Positions 3,875 through 28,830 of a stretch of 33,619 nucleotides of DNA are shown in pieces (position 1 is the first letter of the stretch; every line of letters begins with the position of its first letter). This stretch comes from an uncultured Flavobacteriales bacterium. GTDB lineage: Bacteria; Bacteroidota; Bacteroidia; Flavobacteriales_G; Salibacteraceae. Position numbers and translations under genes: made by a program. Where the stretch lies: assembly GCA_913020435.1 (NCBI GenBank), contig CAJVZZ010000027.1, positions 1-33,619 of the forward strand, read 5' to 3'. A model generated the notes under the pieces. That model made no database searches. It worked only from the letters and a program-made list of their open reading frames with translations, and was not told the origin of the DNA.

Positions 3875-4390
3875 TTAAGCTGGATTATTTGCCGCACTTT
3901 GCACTTTTATACTTTTTACATCTCTATCAAAAAGATACAATCCACCTTTATCGTTTCCAATCAAGTTCAGCTTGTCCAATATAGTTCTAGCAAGCGCTTC
4001 TTCTTCAATTTGCTCAGCAACATACCATTGTAAGAAGTTGTGCGTAGTATAATCCCTCAACTCCAAACATCTAAAAACTAATTCGTTGATACTGTTAGTT
4101 ATTAATTCTTCGTGCTTCAACAAATCATCAAAAATAGCTTGTAACGAATCAAATACCGTTGCTGGTTTTGATAGTTCCGGAACTATAGAGGTGCCTCCAC
4201 GTTCATTAATATAGCGTAAAATTTTCATCATGTGCGCGCGCTCTTCTTCACTGTGCATGTATAAAAACTCTGCTGTCCCACTGTATCCTTTACCTTCTGC
4301 CCAAGAGGCCATCGCTAAATAATATTGAGAACTTTCTGCTTCCATTCTTAACTGTTCATTGAGCTGCTTCTCTATGTCTGCTGAAATCAT
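3875..4390 (-). CDS. ftnA: Ferritin, FtnA type (non-haem iron storage)
   Basis: This 171-aa four-helix ferritin oxidises Fe(II) and stores iron as a ferric mineral inside a 24-subunit cytoplasmic shell. The ferroxidase residues fall at the same numbers as in E. coli FtnA: Glu17, Tyr24, Glu50, His53, Glu94, Gln127 and Glu130 ('MEAESSQYY', 'SEEERAHMM', 'KHEELI', 'AEQIEEEA'). There is no Met haem ligand of the bacterioferritin kind. Start is ATG. It is divergent from RNase R, with a 141-nt gap holding a TAATTTTG -7 box for ferritin. The unknown membrane gene follows on the same strand. Confidence 0.96.
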   Translation of the reverse strand: MISADIEKQLNEQLRMEAESSQYYLAMASWAEGKGYSGTAEFLYMHSEEERAHMMKILRYINERGGTSIVPELSKPATVFDSLQAIFDDLLKHEELITNSINELVFRCLELRDYTTHNFLQWYVAEQIEEEALARTILDKLNLIGNDKGGLYLFDRDVKSIKVQSAANNPA

Positions 4391-4445
4391 GTTAATATAC
4401 CTTTAAATTGTTAGTGAAAAATTGGACTTTCCAACTTTTCTTCGT

Positions 4446-4476
4446 CAAAATTACGTTTCCTTCGCTAATAAGAAAA
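4446..4476 (-). promoter_or_regulatory. Probable ferritin promoter
   Basis: Minus-strand TAATTTTG (4446-4453) is an exact TAnnTTTG box. A TTTT (4473-4476) lies 19 nt upstream at the -33 position, one base off TTTG. The predicted leader is about 50 nt. Confidence 0.5.
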
Positions 4477-4531
4477 CTGAACCAGTAAAATGGTTTTAAT
4501 AATACTCAATTTAGAATTAATCTAATTACCC

Positions 4532-6700
4532 TTGGGAAGAAAAAGACGTAACGAACGCATTGGAAAACGAAACGGGTCTGCGGGCCAGTCAAGTTCAATA
4601 AAAAAACTGATTTTAGATGCCTTTCAGGAACATCCAAAACGGATTTTCAACTATAAACAAGTTGCCCGAAGAATTAGCTTGAATACTAGTAAAGGCAAAG
4701 AACAGGTGCAAAACGCATTATTCAAACTTGTAGAAGAAGGTGCATTATTGGAAAATGATCCTGGACAGTTCCAATTGCATGAAATTTCTAAAATTGTAAT
4801 TGGAGTAATCGATATTACTCAAAAAGGTTCCGGATTCGTAATTGTTGAAGGAATGGAAAATGATATTTTTATTCCCTCTTCAGAGACTAATCGTGCATTA
4901 AACGGTGATACTGTAGAAGTTAAAGTAGTTCCTGAAAAGAAAGGAAAACTAAAGGGTCGCGTCATTAATGTATTAGAACGCAAGAAAATTCAGTTTGTAG
5001 GTTCACTTGAAGTAAGTGAAAAATTTGCTTTTTTCACTGCCTCCAGTACAAAAATGAATCAGGATATTTTCATTCCTAAAAATAAATTAAACAATGCAAC
5101 ACACCGACAAAAAGTCGTTGTAAAGTTGACCGAATGGCCAGTTGGAGCAAATTCTCCGTTTGGAGAAGTGGTTGAAATACTCGGGAACCCTGGAGAAAAT
5201 GATACTGAAATGAACAGTATTCTTGCAGACTATGGTTTCCCATTAAACTTTCCAGAACGAGTAGAAGAAGCTGCGTCGAAAATTGATACTACTATTACGG
5301 AGGAAGAGATCGCTAAACGTGAAGACTTTAGAAAAGTAACCACCTTTACTATCGATCCGCATGATGCAAAAGACTTTGACGATGCGCTTTCTATAAGAAA
5401 TTTAGAAAATGATAAATTAGAAATTGGAGTTCATATTGCTGATGTAACGCATTATGTACAGCCAAAATCAATTATTGAAAAAGAAGCTGTTTCAAGAGCA
5501 ACTTCAGTTTATTTGGTGGATAGGGTTATCCCAATGCTACCTGAGGTTTTATCAAATGGGGTGTGTAGCCTTCGTCCTAACGAAGACAAACTTTGCTACA
5601 GTTGCATCTTTACTTTCGATAAGAATCATAAAATCATAAATCATAGAATTACGCGAAGTGTAATTCATTCTGACCGTCGATTTACTTACGAAGATGTTCA
5701 AGAAATTTTGGAAGGAAAAGTCGGTGACTTTGAAAAAGAACTCCATACACTGAACACTATTGCAAAAGAAAAGCGCGCAATTAGGCTTAAAGAAGGTTCA
5801 ATTGCCTTTGACAAGGTGGAGGTTCGATTTAACTTAGACGAAGAAAAGAAGCCGGTTGGAGTGCTGCTGAAAGTGCAAAAAGATGCGCACAAACTAATTG
5901 AGGAGTTCATGTTATTAGCTAATAAAACAGTTGCTTCTGATATTGGTAATCCAAAAGAGAAATTCCAAAAACCAAGAACTTTTGTATACCGTATACACGA
6001 TACTCCTGATCCAGAAAAACTTAAAACGTTCTCTCATTTTATCAAACGTTTTGGATATGATTATGCCTTTGGGGAAGGCAATGTTGCTCAAAACCTAAAT
6101 GCTTTATTACAAGAAGTTCAAGGAAAAGGCGAAGAAAATACAATTGAAAACCTCGCTATTCGAACCATGGCAAAGGCCGTATATACAACTGAAAATATAG
6201 GCCATTACGGATTAGGATTTTCTCATTATAGTCACTTTACATCTCCAATTAGGCGATACCCAGATATGATGGTTCACCGATTATTAACTCAATATTTAGC
6301 AGGTCAAAATGAAGTAGACCAAGAGTGGTTGGAAGGTCTTTGTAAACATTCTAGCGAGATGGAGCAGCTAGCCACTAATGCTGAACGAGAATCTACAAAG
6401 TATTTTCAAGTATTGTTTATGCAAGGCACCGAAGGTCAGGAATTCACAGGCATTGTTAGTGGGATGAGTGAGTGGGGTATGTATGTTGAATTAGAGGAAA
6501 GTAAGTGCGAAGGAATGATCCGGTTGCGTGACATTAGCGGCGACTATTTTACTTATGATGAAGAAAATTACCAAGTGGTGGGCAACAACACAAAAACGAT
6601 AATCAATCTAGGGCAAAAACTGATTATTAAGGTAAAGGAAGCTGATTTAGTTCGCAAACGTTTGGACTTTGAATTGATAGATTTTGCGGACGGGAATTAG
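4532..6700 (+). CDS. rnr: Ribonuclease R (3'-5' exoribonuclease)
   Basis: A 722-aa RNase II/R-family processive exoribonuclease that degrades structured RNA in the cytoplasm. Domains in order: basic N-terminus, winged helix (about 25-85), two cold-shock OB domains (about 86-150 and 150-235), catalytic RNB domain (about 265-590), S1 domain (about 635-718). The RNB motif 'IDPHDAKDFDDA' supplies the metal-binding Asp275, Asp281, Asp283 and Asp284 with the family spacing. The winged helix and S1 domain set it apart from RNase II. The start is TTG; the next Met is at residue 107, inside the first OB fold, so no ATG start fits. The stop overlaps by 4 nt the stop of the convergent deacetylase gene. 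Confidence 0.95.
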   Translation: MGRKRRNERIGKRNGSAGQSSSIKKLILDAFQEHPKRIFNYKQVARRISLNTSKGKEQVQNALFKLVEEGALLENDPGQFQLHEISKIVIGVIDITQKGSGFVIVEGMENDIFIPSSETNRALNGDTVEVKVVPEKKGKLKGRVINVLERKKIQFVGSLEVSEKFAFFTASSTKMNQDIFIPKNKLNNATHRQKVVVKLTEWPVGANSPFGEVVEILGNPGENDTEMNSILADYGFPLNFPERVEEAASKIDTTITEEEIAKREDFRKVTTFTIDPHDAKDFDDALSIRNLENDKLEIGVHIADVTHYVQPKSIIEKEAVSRATSVYLVDRVIPMLPEVLSNGVCSLRPNEDKLCYSCIFTFDKNHKIINHRITRSVIHSDRRFTYEDVQEILEGKVGDFEKELHTLNTIAKEKRAIRLKEGSIAFDKVEVRFNLDEEKKPVGVLLKVQKDAHKLIEEFMLLANKTVASDIGNPKEKFQKPRTFVYRIHDTPDPEKLKTFSHFIKRFGYDYAFGEGNVAQNLNALLQEVQGKGEENTIENLAIRTMAKAVYTTENIGHYGLGFSHYSHFTSPIRRYPDMMVHRLLTQYLAGQNEVDQEWLEGLCKHSSEMEQLATNAERESTKYFQVLFMQGTEGQEFTGIVSGMSEWGMYVELEESKCEGMIRLRDISGDYFTYDEENYQVVGNNTKTIINLGQKLIIKVKEADLVRKRLDFELIDFADGN

Positions 6701-7360: not shown

Positions 7361-10300
7361 TTATGATTTAGCTGTGAACTCTCTTTCTAGGCGCTCAAAC
7401 ACTTCTTTAGAATAAGTATTCATTTCGCCGTTTGGATTGTATTTATTAATCATTGTGTTGATTTGATAAATGATACTTATGTTTTGCTGTGGCGTTTGAC
7501 CCAGTCTCTTATAGAAACCTGTTTTAAGACCTAGGTAATAATCCAATTCCGATTCATATTTATCCAACATTACCTTAGCAATTGCTTCGCCTTTTTCTGA
7601 ATTACCTGTTTTGTAATACAACTCAATTAATGGCAACATGAAATAATTAAATGGAACTTGATGGTCTGGCATTTCCAATACTGCCTTATCCAACAAGGCT
7701 ACTGCTTTATCTATTTCATTTCTTCGTAACATTTCATCAGCACAGCGAGCAAAATTGTTTCTTAGGTTCATACACATTCTTAAAATGTTGTGATCCACAT
7801 AAACATTGTCCTCTTTTACGTTTCCATAGCTAAACTTATTCATCAGGTTGTCATACATTTTATCTGCATTAACGTAACCTGTCTGACCATCTGGGCTAGA
7901 ACCTTTAAATGGCACTAAACGGTAAGTAAGACCCTCCAACTGAAAGTGACCTTGCAAACCGATATAAGCATCAGCTCCTGTTGTAATCGCAAAATAAATT
8001 GGTCGATCCCAATTGAAATGAGCTAATAAATCCAGCATCATAATATCCTTTTTCAAAAGGTAATTTTTACCAACTTTCCATTTGATTTCACTTAAAACTT
8101 CGCCCGCTTTTTCCGGGGGAACAGTTCCATTAGCCAATACTTTAGCCGTATCAACTGGTAAACTGTAAAGTTTAGTAGGAGAATAGTTCATTTTACGATT
8201 ATTCCCCATAGAAGCTTGGTTTTTATCGTCAGAGAAAAACTCTACTATCTGCTTAACATCTAAATACTTTTCCGTTTTATTTCTATCAATAACCGGAATA
8301 TAATCTCGCGTTCCTTGACGATATTGATGTGGCTTCAATGTGAATGGTGTTGGCTTACTGTCATAAGCGGCTCTACTCATTTGATCAATGTACCAATCCG
8401 TGTTTAGTAAACTTAAATTCACTACGCGAACATCGGTTCTGTAACCCTCAACTTCTTGCACATACCATAGCGGGAATGTATCGTTATCACCGTTGGTAAA
8501 CAATACTGCATCTGGATCGCAAGAATCTAAATACATTTTAGCAAAATGTAATGCTGTGTATCTATTTGATCTGTTGTGATCGTCCCAGCCCTCTTTTGCC
8601 ATAATTCCAGGAACTGCAGCAAGGCATATAACAGTTGCCAGGCCTCCTGCTACTGCTCGATTTATTTTTACTTTATTCGCCAATAAATCAATAATCCCGA
8701 GCACTCCCAGCCCTATCCAAATTGTAAAAGCATAAAATGAACCTGCATAGGCGTAATCTCGCTCACGCGGTTGGAAAGGATACTGATTCAAGTAAACAAT
8801 AATTGCCAAACCGGTAAATACGAATAACATGGTAACTAAGGCAAAGTCTCTTTTTGAAGAGTTGAATTGAAAGAAAATTCCAATCAATCCTAATATTAAA
8901 GGAAGAAAGAAATATGTATTTCTTGCTTTGTGATCCCCAATACTTGGTGGCAGATTGGACTGATCGCCTAAGCGCAAGTTATCAATTGCATCAATTCCAC
9001 TTAACCAGTTTCCATCAACGATCCCATTATGTCCTTGAACATCATTTTGTCTTCCTGCAAAATTCCAAAGAAAATACCTCCAGTACATCCACATGACTTG
9101 ATGTTTGACAAAGAACTGAATGTTTTCGCCAAAAGTTGGCTTATAAATAGTTTCCATTTTACCGCCATATACCTTATAACGCATTGGTTTTCCTTTAAAG
9201 TCTGACCATGTTTTATAAGCTTTAATATGTCGTGCTTCTTGACTCCACATGCGTGGAAATACCGTCATAAATTCAGAAGCGTAATTCGGTTGTGTTTTTT
9301 TATGGTGGGTAGATTTTTTATACTCGCCTTTATCAAACTCTTGAAAATAAGTTGGAGAACCATCAGTATATGGGTTCTTATTATCCAGTGGAGTATTAAA
9401 ATACTGTCCGTATGCAATTGGTTGAGAACCGTATTGTTCACGATTCAAGTAACTCAGCAGTGAAAACATGTTTTCTGGATTATTCTCATCCATCGGTGGA
9501 TTGGCGTTTGACCTAACCAAAACCAAGGTGTAAGAAGAATACCCAATAAGAATAACAGAAATACAAAGCAATCCTGTATTAACAGCACGATCTGAAACAT
9601 TTGGAACCATAACAAAAATTCCAACTATAACTCCTGCTACAACTAACCCTAACGTAGAGAAGGAAGCAACCAATAGAGCGATTACAACCAAAATCCCCAT
9701 TAATTTCCATTTTCTATCACCTGATTGGTGTGTTAACATTATTCCGTAAACAACTGCAGCTAATAATAATATTACGTGGATAAAAGCACCTGTATTAAAT
9801 GGTAATCCAAAGCTATTGACAAATAACAATTCAAATTTCCCAGACATTGTAACGAGACCTGGAATAACTCCTTTTTGTACAAATCCTAAAATTAGAATAG
9901 ACGCAGCAGCGGTTACACCAATACCTTTTGGTGTTGGTTTGAATTTTTTAAAGTAGAAAACGAAAGCAATTGCTGGTATAGCAAGTAAGTTAAGAAGGTG
10001 AACCCCAATTGAAAGACCCATCAAATAAGCGATAAAAATCAACCAGCGGTCTGCACCCGGTTCCTCTGAAACTCTTTCCCATCGAAGTATCGCCCAAAAA
10101 ACGATAGCTGTAAACAAAGAGGACATTGCATAAACCTCAGCTTCTACAGCCGAAAACCAGAACGTATCACTGAATGTGTAAGCCAAAGCTCCTACCATAG
10201 AACTGCCGACTACGGCTATGGTTTTACCCATATTCCATTCAGAATTTGTTTTATTCAATATTTTTCTTGCCAAAGCAGAAATAGTCCAGAATAAAAACAA

Positions 10301-19488: not shown

Positions 19489-20196
19489 ATGACAAAAAGC
19501 TTAATTCTATCCTTATTTTTTATAGGTTTTGTAAACTGTTTTCTTTTTTCTCAAGAAATAGATACTGAACTTTCTAAATCTAAAAATCGTCCAATAAAAA
19601 AAGACAATTTTTTGATAGATATTTCCTTTGACAATTTAGCTAATGCACCAAATGGAGTAAGCTTTAAATATGGGTATGGAAATAATATTCAACTATTCTA
19701 CGATCACCAATTTAAAGCAAAGGTTTTGAGTGGTGCTATAGGTTTGGGATATTCACATTCAAAATACTTTACTGACGGATTCATTACTCATACTGATACT
19801 GCATCTGGAGCCGATTACTCAACTTTCCAAACTATTAATTCAGTAAAGGCAGATTCATCTTTTAAAAGAAACTCCTACACCACGAATTATTTTGACATTC
19901 CTTTTGAATTAAGATTCAGATCAACACCAAATGAAAAAGGACATAGTTGGAAGGCCTCTCTTGGATTTAAAGTTGGTTTTAGGATAGGATCTTATACTAC
20001 TACAAGAACAGAAGCTGGACGTTTTAGTGATTTTATTCAACCCAACCTTACCAAGACTCGATACGGTATCACTGCTAGATTTGGCTATGGGCGATTGGGT
20101 CTAATGGGTTATTGCGGATTAACTCAGTTGTTCGAAGCGAATAAAGGCCATGAAATAATTCCTTACTCAATAGGATTTACAATTTCTCCTTTCTAA
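19489..20196 (+). CDS. Outer-membrane beta-barrel protein, unknown function
   Basis: 235 aa with a signal peptide (about 1-21, ending 'FLFSQ'). The rest shows alternating aromatic/polar beta strands ('NIQLFYDHQFKAKVL', 'SGAIGLGYSHSKYF', 'TNYFDIPFELRFRS', 'WKASLGFKVGFRIGSYTT', 'YGITARFGYGRLGLMGYCGL') and ends in 'YSIGFTISPF', with the C-terminal Phe expected of a BAM-inserted barrel. It resembles the PorT-like small barrels common in Bacteroidota, but I cannot assign it to a named family. Its TAA stop overlaps by 4 nt the stop of the convergent receiver gene. Confidence 0.75.
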   Translation: MTKSLILSLFFIGFVNCFLFSQEIDTELSKSKNRPIKKDNFLIDISFDNLANAPNGVSFKYGYGNNIQLFYDHQFKAKVLSGAIGLGYSHSKYFTDGFITHTDTASGADYSTFQTINSVKADSSFKRNSYTTNYFDIPFELRFRSTPNEKGHSWKASLGFKVGFRIGSYTTTRTEAGRFSDFIQPNLTKTRYGITARFGYGRLGLMGYCGLTQLFEANKGHEIIPYSIGFTISPF

Positions 20197-20597
20197 ACCT
20201 TAATAGAATTTACTCTTTCTGGAAGTGCTTCTAGAATTAAGTTTACCAATTCTGTATAATTTATTGGCTTTTTGAAGAATCGATCAAATCCTAATTCTTT
20301 AAAATAAGGTTCATCTTTACCAAATGCTACTCCTGTGAACGCCCAAATTTGGGCTAAATGGTAAATAGAATCTTTTCTTAATTCTTCCATTACCTCGATT
20401 CCATCCATATTATGGCTCAATCGAATCTCTATAAGCACCGCATCAAAAATTTCGCGCTTTGCAAGATGAAGCGCTTCAACTCCATTTCTTGCAACAGTTA
20501 AATGAAACTTCTTGCCTAAAATCTTCTCCATGACAAAAATGCTTATCTCATCACTTTCTACAAGTAAAACTCTTACGTTGGGATACTCTGCCATCAT
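20193..20597 (-). CDS. Stand-alone response-regulator receiver domain, degenerate phospho-acceptor site
   Basis: 134 aa from the ATG at 20597 (a second ATG follows at 20594); a TTG at 20621 is in frame, but it forms part of a TAGATTTG promoter box, so the ATG start is preferred. The whole protein is one CheY-like fold with no output domain. Compared with canonical receivers, the acid pocket reads 'LLVESDE': Glu14 keeps the first acid but Ser15 replaces the Mg-binding Asp, and the phospho-acceptor position in 'AVLIEIRL' is Glu57, not Asp. The switch Thr88 ('AFTG') and Lys110 ('FFKKP') remain. It is therefore probably not phosphorylated in the normal way and may sit in a permanently active-like or scaffold state (inference). 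No histidine kinase is nearby. Confidence 0.88.
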   Translation of the reverse strand: MMAEYPNVRVLLVESDEISIFVMEKILGKKFHLTVARNGVEALHLAKREIFDAVLIEIRLSHNMDGIEVMEELRKDSIYHLAQIWAFTGVAFGKDEPYFKELGFDRFFKKPINYTELVNLILEALPERVNSIKV

Positions 20598-20618
20598 ACC
20601 TCTTTTTTGAGCGGTACT

Positions 20619-20626
20619 CAAATCTA
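20619..20626 (-). promoter_or_regulatory. -7 box of the receiver gene
   Basis: Minus-strand TAGATTTG, exact to TAnnTTTG. It overlaps the in-frame TTG codon and so argues for translation from the ATG about 20 nt further on. Confidence 0.5.
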
Positions 20627-20692
20627 GCTTATAAATCGATTAAACCACTGCAGTTGAATAATATAATATTCACTAGGTAATGTTTATCGGGA

Positions 20693-21208
20693 CTAAATTC
20701 TTCCCATTTGCCCTTTGAGCATTTTTATTTGGTCACTTAACAGTTTAGCCTTATCGAATTTCTTAGCTTGAGCCATGTAGTTCATTGCCTCTCGCTTACG
20801 TCTTCTTGCCATTGCTATTCCAGCCAAATTAAGGTTAGCCATTGCTTTGTCGTGATCCATGCTTAGACCCGTATTTAAAGCTTTTTTGAAGTGTTTTTCA
20901 GATTTCGTCATTGAATTGTTTTGGCTCTCAATCAATCCATTCAAAAAATAAAAATACGCTTGTTGCTTTATTGGCATTTGTTCTGGCTTTTTAACCCAAC
21001 TCATTATTTTTCTTGCGCTATCGAACTTGCTTCTTCGAATCTGTAAAAATGCAAGCAAGTTTATTTCGTGTTTAAAAAGTAAAAGAACAATTATGCCATC
21101 CAAAAGAAGGTACATAATTCCATTGCCAATGTTTACTTGAAAAAACTCGTAAACCATTGCTGCAGAAACAATTGCAATAAGAGTAAATTTTATAATTCGA
21201 TTAAGCAT
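20693..21208 (-). CDS. Small membrane-anchored TPR-like protein
   Basis: 171 aa from the ATG at 21208. An in-frame TTG at 21232 lies inside the promoter box and is rejected as the start. Two hydrophobic segments at the N-terminus (about 6-25 and 30-45) form a membrane hairpin. After it comes a cytoplasmic helical part (about 55-170) with TPR-like periodicity ('QAYFYFLNGLIESQNNSMTKSEKHFKKAL', 'KAMANLNLAGIAMARRRKREAMNYMAQAKKFD'). It probably acts as a protein-protein adaptor at the inner membrane; no specific partner can be named. It has its own promoter in the 35-nt gap after the GH3 gene. Confidence 0.75.
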   Translation of the reverse strand: MLNRIIKFTLIAIVSAAMVYEFFQVNIGNGIMYLLLDGIIVLLLFKHEINLLAFLQIRRSKFDSARKIMSWVKKPEQMPIKQQAYFYFLNGLIESQNNSMTKSEKHFKKALNTGLSMDHDKAMANLNLAGIAMARRRKREAMNYMAQAKKFDKAKLLSDQIKMLKGQMGRI

Positions 21209-21229
21209 TCTGTAAGTTTTTGTAGGCTG

Positions 21230-21260
21230 CAAAAGTAGAAGGAATCAAAGCAACCACAAA
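21230..21260 (-). promoter_or_regulatory. Promoter of the TPR-like gene
   Basis: Minus strand: TTTG (21257-21260), 19 nt, TACTTTTG (21230-21237), a full match to the Bacteroidota consensus. It gives a leader of about 15-20 nt to the ATG at 21208. Confidence 0.75.
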
Positions 21261-24655: not shown

Positions 24656-25240
24656 TTAATCAAGCCTCTCATAGTATTGATTGATGTAACCTTCGATCAC
24701 ATTTGCATATTCCTCATGCTCTACCTTAAGAACCTCTGCTGCAATTTGTTCTGTTGTATGGCTAATTGTTATTGGTATCTTTTTCTGAAAAAGTATTCGA
24801 CCTTTATCGTACTCTTCACTTACCAAATGAATGGTCGGACCGCTAATTAAATCTTTATTCAGCTTAACAGCCTTATGAACAGTTATCCCATACATTCCTT
24901 TTCCTCCATATTTTGGTAATAAAGAGGGGTGGATGTTTAAGATTCTATCTGGATAAGTTTGAATTAGCTCTAGAGGAATCTTTTTTAAATATCCTGCCAA
25001 AACAATTACGTCGATGTTGTTTTCGTCTAGTAATTCTAAGATTTCAGTAGGGTTTATAATTTGGGATTTCGATAGTAATATACTGTGTACTTGAAAGTTT
25101 TTAGCATGCTCAAAAACACCCGCATTTACTTTGTTGCTTAGAACCAATCCAACCTCAATTGTTTTATGACCCCTAAAATATTGCAGGATTTTTTGGGCAT
25201 TACTACCGCCCCCTGATGCAAAAACGGCAATCCTTTTCAT
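24656..25240 (-). CDS. purN: Phosphoribosylglycinamide formyltransferase (PurN)
   Basis: A 194-aa enzyme of purine synthesis that transfers formyl from 10-formyl-tetrahydrofolate to GAR. Motifs: 'AVFASGGGSNAQKI' at the N-terminus (phosphate loop, 'GGGSN' at about 10-14), 'VIVLAGYLKKIP' (about 78-90), the catalytic 'NIHPSLLPKYGGKGMYG' (Asn and His near 102-104), 'VHKAV', and 'VSEEYDKGRILFQ' with the catalytic Asp. Size is normal for PurN. ATG start. It diverges from the nitroreductase pseudogene with only 32 nt between the starts, so its promoter overlaps decaying sequence. mscS follows after 75 nt. Confidence 0.96.
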   Translation of the reverse strand: MKRIAVFASGGGSNAQKILQYFRGHKTIEVGLVLSNKVNAGVFEHAKNFQVHSILLSKSQIINPTEILELLDENNIDVIVLAGYLKKIPLELIQTYPDRILNIHPSLLPKYGGKGMYGITVHKAVKLNKDLISGPTIHLVSEEYDKGRILFQKKIPITISHTTEQIAAEVLKVEHEEYANVIEGYINQYYERLD

Positions 25241-25272
25241 ATAATGAATTAGTGCTTATTTTACCTACAAAA

Positions 25273-25845
25273 ATGCAACAATCCAAATCCTTTATACCTC
25301 TTCAACACAAAGAATTGAGCAAAGATGAGTTTGAAAGTGCCCTCAATGACTTTTTTGAGCTTTGCAATAGTAGAAGATCGGTTAGGACATTTTCGAACAA
25401 AGAGGTTCCGCAAAAAATAGTGGAGGCGATTATTAAAACCGCAGGCACTGCGCCTAGCGGCGCACACAAACAACCTTAGCATTTTTGTGCGATTAAAAGC
25501 TCTTCAATAAAATCAAAGATTAGAGCAGCAGCAGAAAAGGGAGAATACGAAAATTACCATGGCAGAATGAGCGTAGCTTAATTAGATGATCTTAAAAAAT
25601 TTGGTGCCAATCACATAAAGCCCTTTTTAGAAATTGCTGCAGGAATACTTCTAAACGTTATCACTGCTGCGGGTTTAGTTTCGTTAACTCATACACCAAG
25701 TCCAATGAACTTTCTAGCTGAATTGCTCAACCGACCAAAAAACAAGTGAGCATATCTTCTTATACCAATAGGATATCCAGCCAAAGAAACTTTAATGCCA
25801 CTCATTAAACGCAAAGATCTTTCGGATATTATGACCATATACTAA
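25273..25845 (+). pseudogene. Nitroreductase-family pseudogene (iodotyrosine-deiodinase/BluB-like branch)
   Basis: One reading frame runs from the ATG at 25273 to the TAA at 25843-25845 and reads as an FMN nitroreductase: 'FYxLCN.RRSVRxFS' type start ('ELCNSRRSVRTFSN'), 'IIKTAGTAPSGAHKQP', 'YENYHGRM', 'KPFLEIA', 'AGLVSLTHTPSPMNFL', 'LNRPKNK', 'YLLIPIGYPA'. It is interrupted by TAG (25477-25479, where the family has Trp after HKQP), TAA (25579-25581, probably another Trp) and TGA (25747-25749). About 30-45 residues are missing between 'LEIA' and 'AGILLNV', including part of the central FMN/dimer region. All three stop codons are used, so recoding is not the explanation. The frame is otherwise kept, which suggests recent decay. 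Confidence 0.92.
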
Positions 25846-26732: not shown

Positions 26733-27029
26733 ATGGCGTCTTTTACTGAAATAATAAATGGAGATAAGCCTGTATTAATTGACTTTCACGCAGATTGGTG
26801 TGGACCTTGTAGAGTGCTCTCGCCCATTATTCAAGAAGTTGCGAAAGCATTCGATGGTAAAGTGCGAGTGATAAAAATTGACGTGGATAAAAACGCCACT
26901 TTAGCGGATAAGTTTCAAATTCAAGGAGTACCAACAATGATGCTTTTCAAAGACGGAAAGTCAGTTTGGAGGCAGTCGGGAGTTTTACAGAAAGATGAAA
27001 TAATTAAACAAATAGGGTCATTTTCTTAG
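26733..27029 (+). CDS. Thioredoxin
   Basis: 98 aa, a minimal thioredoxin fold without signal peptide, so cytoplasmic. The redox motif 'WCGPC' lies at residues 22-26, with the preceding 'PVLIDFHAD' strand, the 'KIDVDKN' strand, the cis-proline loop 'QGVPTMMLFKDG' and the final helix all present. It reduces protein disulfides using NADPH/thioredoxin reductase; no reductase gene lies in the window. It is the last gene of a run with the rhodanese lipoprotein and the decayed lipoprotein, and it is intact while its neighbours are broken, which suggests it is still under selection. Confidence 0.95.
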   Translation: MASFTEIINGDKPVLIDFHADWCGPCRVLSPIIQEVAKAFDGKVRVIKIDVDKNATLADKFQIQGVPTMMLFKDGKSVWRQSGVLQKDEIIKQIGSFS

Positions 27030-27134
27030 ATAATGCACCTTGGCGACAATCTTAAAAAGATCAGACTTTGCAATTGGCAGATAGTTTTCCATCGCAGGGT
27101 TAAAAAAACTATACGTTATTGGAATCAGTTCCAT

Positions 27135-28830
27135 TTAGCGATCTTGTTCCGTACCTAACTTCCGTATCAGCTCATTTGAAATTAACTCATCAAAACACCC
27201 AAGTTCCATGCGCAATAAATACACACCTGGCAAAAAGATTTCTGGGTCGCCTTTTCGTCTCCACATACTACTGGTTAAAAACGCGGCTGCCGATAACTCA
27301 AACTCTTCAGGTATATCGTTGAATCCTACTTTAGCTTTACTTTTGTGTTGTTGAAAACGATATTCTGTCTCGACCGAAGGTATTGGCAAAAGACTTCGTT
27401 GGTCTGTTTTTTTGTACGAATAAAAACTACGTCCAAGTAAATTGTAATGCATTGATAACCCTGCTGTTCCCAACTTAGAATCATCATTATAGTATGCTTG
27501 TTCGTGTGCAGCACCAATTTCAGATACTTGCTCTAGATAATTATCATTTACCAAAATGTTCTCTGAATAACTTTCGGTATAAACCACTTTATTATTGTTG
27601 TTGTAATAATTCCAATTACCCGTTTTAATACCAGCTGTATAGTAACCTTTTGATTCTAGAGCTCCTACTGACCTGTGGGTTATCGATAACCCATTTCGAA
27701 AACCATAATTATAATTATGCTCCGCTATCTTTTGGTCGTAAACATTAAATAGAACCCAATTTCGTTCTTTTTTTTCGTGCAGAAAATACCCCTCCCACTT
27801 TCTCGAATTATTTGAACCATGGTAGACCATTTTTACTACTGAATCTGATTTGAACTCATATTCAATTTGAGGTTTAGGTTTATTGATTTTTGAATTGAAA
27901 TATACCCATTTACCGTATCTCTTACCTTTTAGAAAACCACCTTCGGCCCATTTGAATTGCTCATTATAATAAACTGCAGGTCCATGTACGAGTCCATTTT
28001 TATAATTAACCATTGATTTAAGCTTACCATCAAAATCATAAAGAGAATAGTTCTCCATTTCCTTCTTTAAAGTTACCGTTATCCTGCTGCGCACCTGTAC
28101 TACCATTATAGGCTGCTATTTTAAGGAGTGTATCACTCTGGTATAACATGTTAGACCATAAGTCACCGTTTTTGTACCAAATCACCTCATTACTATCTCT
28201 TTGTTCGTTCACCAACTTAGTTACAAAAAATGGATTTCCGTTTTCATAGTATATATTCACTCTATGTATCGTATCCGCACCAGAAAGTTGATACTGGATT
28301 CGTTCAATTAATATGGCTGGGATAGAATCACTTCCAAATGGATAATAAACGCTTTGCTCAATTAAGGTATCTGCTTCATAAATATATTCGCTGCATAAAT
28401 TGCCATTAGGATAAAAACCCCTCCATGTATTTACTCTTTTACCTCTTTCAAAATATATTTTTAACATTCTAGCGCCATTACGATGGTAAAAGATTCATTT
28501 ACCATGAGATACATCCATAAGGTAGGTGGCAACAATATGTGGCTTTCCGGTGCTATAATATCTAACCCAGAGTCCATGTTTTCTATTTGCATGAAAGTTC
28601 CCTTCAACCAAAACCTTATCCATGTAAATTTGAGAGAATGCTCCTTATTTTACAATTGGAGATTCACCCTGAATAAAGGAAATTTTATAGGTTAAATTAG
28701 TTGTCGCTTGTATTTCAGTTTCCACTAATTTCTGACCATATATTGTTGCAAAAAAGAGTGTAAGGTTGAATATGATTAAAAATATTAGCATTAAAGCAAT
28801 GATAAATAAATGAATTGTATCTTGAACCAC
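27135..28830 (-). pseudogene. YwqK/MORN-repeat protein pseudogene with N-terminal membrane anchor
   Basis: Read on the minus strand from a GTG at 28830, the frame gives a single membrane span (about residues 8-32) and then MORN/YwqK-type repeats ('GNFHANRKHGLWVRYYSTGKP', 'GKRVNTWRGFYPNGNL', 'NIYYENGNPFF', 'MVNYKNGLVHGPAVYYN', 'LKGKRYGKWVYFNS', 'IKTGNWNYYN'). It is broken by TAA at 28645-28647, by TGA at 28495-28497 (in 'HGK*IFYHRNG', where Trp is expected) and by a frameshift at about 28036-28042. There the first frame ends in 'GELFSL*' and the next continues as 'YDFDGKLKS'; removing one A from the AAA at 28040-28042 joins them as 'GELFSYDFDG'. Three separate lesions make an error in the read unlikely. 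The intact form would be about 560 aa. YwqK-type proteins are often labelled antitoxins without proof. Confidence 0.85.

Follow-up and report, generated by a model that had tools for sequence, protein, structure and literature searches.

A stand-alone receiver with Glu at the phospho-acceptor position in an uncultured Flavobacteriales bacterium: a probable pseudo-receiver whose phosphorylation site was apparently lost in steps

The window, i.e. the whole stretch of 33,619 nt that was analysed, corresponds to contig 27 in a draft genome of 2.95 Mb and 98% completeness, and the nearest named relative that we found for it is a MAG labelled Flavobacteriales bacterium UBA6770 (L009). It carries a gene for a small receiver protein, whose features and direct neighbours are given here (the names DD1, DD2, D, T and K for receiver positions follow PMC12632262):

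20597 (ATG) to 20193 (stop), minus strand: predicted single-domain pseudo-receiver, 134 aa (ORF, Pfam and AlphaFold2 model)
20553..20558, minus strand: codons of Glu14 (DD1, kept) and Ser15 (DD2, direct metal ligand, lost), by sequence count
20427..20429, minus strand: codon GAG of Glu57, the phospho-acceptor position (D), by sequence and alignment
20421..20423, minus strand: codon of Arg59 (D+2), from the table of relatives
20334..20336, minus strand: codon of Thr88 (switch Thr, kept), by sequence and alignment
20268..20270, minus strand: codon of Lys110 (active-site Lys, kept), by sequence and alignment
19489..20196, plus strand: outer-membrane beta-barrel gene (PF13568), convergent with the receiver gene and its neighbour in 7/7 orthologue genomes (Pfam and synteny)
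20693..21232, minus strand: upstream neighbour, a small, mostly helical protein with a hydrophobic N-terminal part, adjoining the receiver gene in 7/7 orthologue genomes

The receiver could start with ATG at 20597 or 20594 or with an in-frame TTG upstream at 20621; because Met occupies the equivalent first column in the five other intact orthologues (5/5), we favour ATG over TTG and number the residues from the ATG at 20597. A plus-strand gene at 20193-20597 was rejected, since the plus strand is full of stops there. Scanning 20100-20800 for promoters yielded 3 where 2.9 were expected, and no terminator was found. A preliminary description of this DNA, made from the sequence alone and giving no strand, had placed the receiver beside an outer-membrane barrel gene and a TPR membrane protein. 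The barrel gene and a helical, membrane-protein-like gene do flank it, but the repeat (TPR) assignment of the latter stays under the curated cut-offs in Pfam and NCBIfam; its single-sequence structure model is poor (pLDDT 58). Two-component linkage was not seen in the window: of 32 listed ORFs, 29 were scanned with Pfam and none of these has a histidine-kinase domain (the other three, of 81, 91 and 115 aa, overlap longer ones), a result that covers a linked kinase only.

In the 142-aa form that starts at the TTG, residues 18-129 score 50.4 bits against PF00072 (Pfam cut-off 30.2), and a match to PF23198 over the same residues stays below its cut-off. The AlphaFold2 model, made from a four-sequence alignment, is a standard receiver (mean pLDDT 84.9) with beta1 at 9-13, beta3 at 53-57, beta4 at 83-88 and beta5 at 106-109, in which Glu57 ends beta3, Ser15 follows beta1, Thr88 ends beta4 and Lys110 follows beta5. 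With a profile match over the cut-off and a (beta-alpha)5 fold in the model, the protein belongs to the receiver domain superfamily (PF00072). In a Foldseek search of the PDB there are 571 matches at E 0.001, and the 50 of them that are listed can all be recognised from title or known family as ordinary receivers, with TM-scores by query length of 0.71-0.83. Searching the PDB sequences with a profile of the orthologues gives the receiver of histidine kinase 8phn first (E 5.6e-15) and DivK (1m5t) second (E 3.9e-14, 116 positions). DivK shares the fold with the window protein; it has the acceptor Asp and the acidic pair, whereas the window protein is without the acceptor Asp. DivK has known kinases. 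The earlier proposal of a stand-alone receiver fold with its chemistry removed is thus borne out at the level of sequence and model (Pfam, AlphaFold2, Foldseek).

The active-site residues are as first noted: 'LLVESDE' (Glu14-Ser15-Asp16) places Ser at the metal site, 'AVLIEIRL' places Glu57 at the acceptor, and Thr88 and Lys110 are kept. The aromatic residue at K-3 (Phe107) is retained too. With Glu57 in the acceptor column the protein is an aspartate-less receiver (ALR), and Glu57 and Ser15 set it apart from canonical single-domain response regulators of the CheY/DivK kind. An alignment slip hiding an Asp at the end of beta3, one of the two observations named beforehand as speaking against the assignment, was rejected, as the window protein has no Asp there in the alignment of column 57. 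The residues at the Ser15 and Glu57 positions agree in four genomes of the genus, which likewise led us to reject an artefact of sequencing or reading frame. Outside the genus, column 57 is Asp in all 42 aligned rows (three of them duplicates, and with hybrid kinases and DNA-binding regulators included), and Asp is also found in L028 and L039, two loci missed by automatic placement. Beyond this table, L010 has Asp, L011 (part of a large protein, with 27% identity over the domain) has Asn, and so do two f29 proteins (L096, L098). In a class sample of 395 genomes, with at most 10 candidates scored per genome, 21 contain a profile match at E 1e-20 or better; besides G000 (the window's genome) and G009, all 19 matches (L095-L113) have the acceptor Asp.

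Within the window's own genome PF00072 matches at 30 places, all of which were aligned: the acceptor is Asp in 29/30 and Glu in the window protein only, and all five active-site positions are intact in 26/30 (Thr or Ser accepted at T). Three other receiver-like regions, L082, L083 and L084, have a non-acidic DD2 (Asn, Ala and Thr, respectively) and keep the acceptor Asp; L083 additionally has Asn at DD1 and Arg replacing the conserved Lys.

A match at E 1e-8 or better occurs in 23 of the 35 genomes of the family, most of them to other receivers. Orthologues were assigned by their surroundings, which identified seven genomes, the window's own included. Identity to the window protein is 86% (over 95 residues) for G033, 71% for G032 and 65% for G034, all of the same genus, and 58% for G008, 53% for G027 and 50% for G009, which represent three sister genera. 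One flank (the upstream helical protein, GH3, DUF3078 and MscS genes) and the other (the convergent barrel, FG-GAP and DAHP-synthase genes) are present in 7/7; the variations are one additional gene separating GH3 from the helical protein and additional FG-GAP genes in G027 and G009. The conserved surroundings span about 15-19 kb. The upstream helical protein is also found in eight other genomes of the family without an adjacent receiver, thus its pairing with the receiver is seen only in the seven-genome group. This conserved context names no partner or pathway for the receiver. When the surroundings of nine f1 relatives (L047-L055) were compared, eight had none of the window's neighbours. 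The ninth, in G028 (L052:9528-13212; L023 with DD2 Asn, D Asp, D+2 Asn), adjoins RNase R and ferritin homologues. The window has its copies of these two genes side by side at 3875-6700, at a distance of 13-16 kb from the receiver. The G028 relative is possibly a displaced orthologue, its place being left unsettled by the 28-row tree described below.

The orthologues differ in a graded manner at DD2, D and D+2. These positions are Ser/Glu/Arg in 4/4 genomes of the window's genus, a count that includes the frameshifted G033, whose front piece holds the three residues, and Asn/Asp/acid in the sister genera (3/3; Glu, Asp and Glu at D+2). Among 24 other tabulated single-domain relatives DD2 is Asp in 23 and D is Asp in 24, with Asn (20), Asp (two) or Ser (two) at D+2. 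Conservation of Glu57 and Ser15 among orthologues, the check proposed in the preliminary description, therefore holds within the genus and ends at its border. Close orthologues with canonical Asp residues had been named there as the other observation against the assignment: the sister genera do have the acceptor Asp, but their metal site is not canonical. Two receivers count against a general rule of Asn at DD2 together with an acid at D+2: L023, the one row with Asn at DD2 among the 24 relatives, has Asn at D+2, and L082, the Asn-DD2 receiver of G000, has Lys there.

In a maximum-likelihood tree of 28 rows, calculated without G033, the three intact Glu rows group together (99/99) within the clade of the six orthologue rows (100/99), and the acceptor changes state once. 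A second tree that includes the f29 proteins keeps the Glu clade (98/99), and a close kinship with the Asn-type pseudo-receivers of f29 (L096, L098) was rejected because these sit on a long branch of their own. The direction of the change cannot be read from the tree by itself; Asp-to-Glu is the simple reading, since Asp is found in every other row of the 28-row tree. By parsimony we infer that the acidic metal ligand was probably lost before the split from the sister genera and that the acceptor Asp would have changed to Glu later, once, on the stem of the genus. The phosphorylation site was thus apparently lost in steps that are still visible in living relatives. The branching among the sister genera is not settled by the tree, therefore DD2 could also have changed twice, with the sisters acquiring Asn and the genus acquiring Ser independently.

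With moderate confidence we read the window protein as a stand-alone pseudo-receiver, descended from a single-domain receiver of the CheY/DivK kind, that would serve as a phosphorylation-independent interaction module. As both the direct metal ligand and the acceptor are gone, phosphorylation at the usual site is not expected and, judging by the chemistry of the family, would be absent; the residue changes alone do not prove its loss. If the receiver acts at all, it would then do so by using its retained surface to bind a partner, and the amount of protein or competition, not phosphorylation, would determine its output. The retained Thr88, Phe107 (K-3) and Lys110, together with the modelled fold, would fit a protein that still binds partners, and a scaffold role, as suggested earlier, is possible.

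The receivers of the two Glu-bearing genomes G032 and G034 share 75% protein identity with synonymous sites saturated, and the neighbours share 70% (barrel), 74% (GH3), 80% (DUF3078), 83% (helical protein) and 86% (MscS). An identity within the range of the neighbours at saturated synonymous sites argues that constraint continued after the loss of the acceptor, and between G032 and G034 the receiver looks constrained. The window's own branch leaves more room for plain decay, in which the receiver would have become dispensable once phosphorylation was lost, the window copy being intact but drifting. In G033 (L043, near 9581-9980) a one-base deletion relative to the window breaks the gene in the beta4 region; it lies inside a cluster of substitutions, which makes its exact place uncertain, and the aligned gap is not next to a long homopolymer. 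When six genes were compared between G000 and G033, dN/dS was highest for the receiver, at about 0.37 versus 0.13 for five neighbours pooled (Fisher p 0.027 in one uncorrected test with 16 differences). This value does not differ significantly from the neutral expectation (p 0.11); for the pair G000 and G032 the receiver has 0.16 versus 0.03-0.07. A relative-rate test of the receiver gave 18 vs 5 (p 0.011) with one outgroup and 7 vs 7 with another, and DUF3078 gave 26:11 in the same test, hence the receiver is not alone in showing this on the branch. The same window also contains a nitroreductase gene interrupted by in-frame stops, which speaks for decay. However, the receiver is intact in 6/7 orthologue genomes, the window copy included, the shift in G033 could be an assembly error, and the first 258 bases of the receiver diverge less between G000 and G033 than the adjacent spacer (4.3%, 11/258, versus 11.7%, 11/94). 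We regard decay as doubtful, even if the gene may be close to the end of its usefulness in the window's species.

It is also unlikely, in our view, that Glu57 works as a phosphomimetic lock, pairing with Thr88 and Lys110 and holding the active conformation, which would make the protein constitutive where its ancestor was switchable. All three intact genus proteins retain Thr88, Lys110 and an aromatic residue at K-3. Glu is the commonest replacement at the acceptor (26% of ALR substitutions; Maule et al. 2015, PMC4395418), and canonical receivers can be activated by it (PMC4395418, PMC12632262). By itself, however, an Asp-to-Glu exchange is often insufficient according to the same two papers, and in some pseudo-receivers replacing the residue at D disproved it as the source of activity (PMC12632262), which also bears on the word 'constitutive' in the preliminary description. 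At K+2, where Ile or Val is described in this literature as favouring the active conformations of CheY, 2/3 intact genus proteins have one of the two; yet the third has Thr, and the three Asp-bearing sister orthologues have Leu, Val or Ile there as well. If the metal ligand went before the Asp, as seems likely, Glu may postdate the importance of phosphorylation; this order suggests an Asp-to-Glu change at an already disused site and makes a phosphomimetic role less likely.

What is most unusual in the series is D+2, which goes from Asn to an acid and then to Arg. Although this change rests on seven sequences of one clade, it supports a reading that we hold to be quite unlikely overall, namely a replacement of the metal by arginine in steps. 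The acid would first have moved from DD2 to D+2 (Asp/Asn to Asn/acid) in the ancestor of the four genera, possibly with a redrawn metal site; Arg59 would then have replaced the metal and paired with Glu14 and Glu57, the resulting fixed salt-bridge network giving an always-on, metal-free receiver. Maule et al. proposed that a positive charge at DD2 may replace the metal in ALRs (PMC4395418), and this reading, if true, would extend to D+2 their idea of a positive pocket charge in place of Mg2+. Literature on acid swaps at D+2 contained no N59D or D13N among the matches listed. Finally, a switch by other means (modification of Glu57, Ser15 or another residue, or a small ligand in the old pocket) is highly improbable: other modifications were raised for ALRs by Maule et al. 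(PMC4395418), but nothing in the sequence of the window protein points to one, and Ser15 is restricted to the four genus members among the seven orthologues.

As a pseudo-receiver the window protein fits a known kind, judging by the literature on ALRs, pseudo-receivers and Rim15. According to Bourret et al. 2025 (PMC12632262), about 6% of the receivers in bacteria are pseudo-receivers, and 'stand alone' ALRs are mentioned by Maule et al. (PMC4395418). An acidic DD2 is kept in only 29% of ALRs (PMC4395418), and about 80% of pseudo-receivers have a non-acidic DD2 (PMC4395418, PMC12632262). Both Asn at DD2 and Glu at D occur commonly among them, and their activation mechanisms are called a mystery (PMC12632262). 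The window protein shares with those described PF00072, Glu at the acceptor, a non-acidic DD2, the acid at DD1 and the retained T and K. Unlike them, as far as the available text of the two surveys goes, its locus shows Asp-bearing orthologues and an apparent order of losses; nor does a protein of the window's lineage appear in that text (PMC4395418, PMC12632262). The Rim15 receivers of fungi likewise have Asp or Glu at the acceptor depending on lineage, with Glu in most Ascomycota entries, but there the receiver is a domain of a large eukaryotic protein kinase and here a stand-alone bacterial protein of 134 aa (PMC8510515). Nearer at hand are the Bacteroidia single-domain receivers with 'LMDINLG'-like motifs (e.g. 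L018-L027, L095-L110), which also stand alone and belong to the same family tree; those of family f1 share 32-40% identity with the window protein, and the tabulated ones differ from it in having the acceptor Asp (24/24) and Asp at DD2 (23/24).

Judged by the titles and the beginnings of abstracts of the papers listed, no earlier description of such a case was found. The kind is already known, and the useful part is the natural series at one locus: the locus and its relatives preserve three stages in living proteins, of which Asp/Asp/Asn is found in the more distant relatives and the other two are Asn/Asp/acid and Ser/Glu/Arg. All are proteins of ~120-150 aa without an output domain, and their side-by-side expression could date the loss of phosphorylation and probe the activity of Glu; the series thus makes the loss of the phosphorylation site testable.

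Three further observations were made along the way. The nitroreductase-family gene at 25216-25845 (plus strand) of the window has several in-frame stops, and the other three genomes of the genus have a 228-aa ORF at this place, thus gene decay does occur in the stretch. A homologue of a 600-aa ORF of G034 lies at 27024-28815 (minus strand) in two different frames that meet near 28040-28048, so that the gene looks frameshifted in the window; in G033 only pieces of this ORF match. Lastly, in two genomes of another family the gene directly upstream of a canonical single receiver encodes a second receiver-like protein (L096:1921-2322, minus strand; L098:941-1351, plus strand), which carries Gly at DD2 and has Asn as its acceptor residue, an independent pseudo-receiver in tandem with a canonical one.
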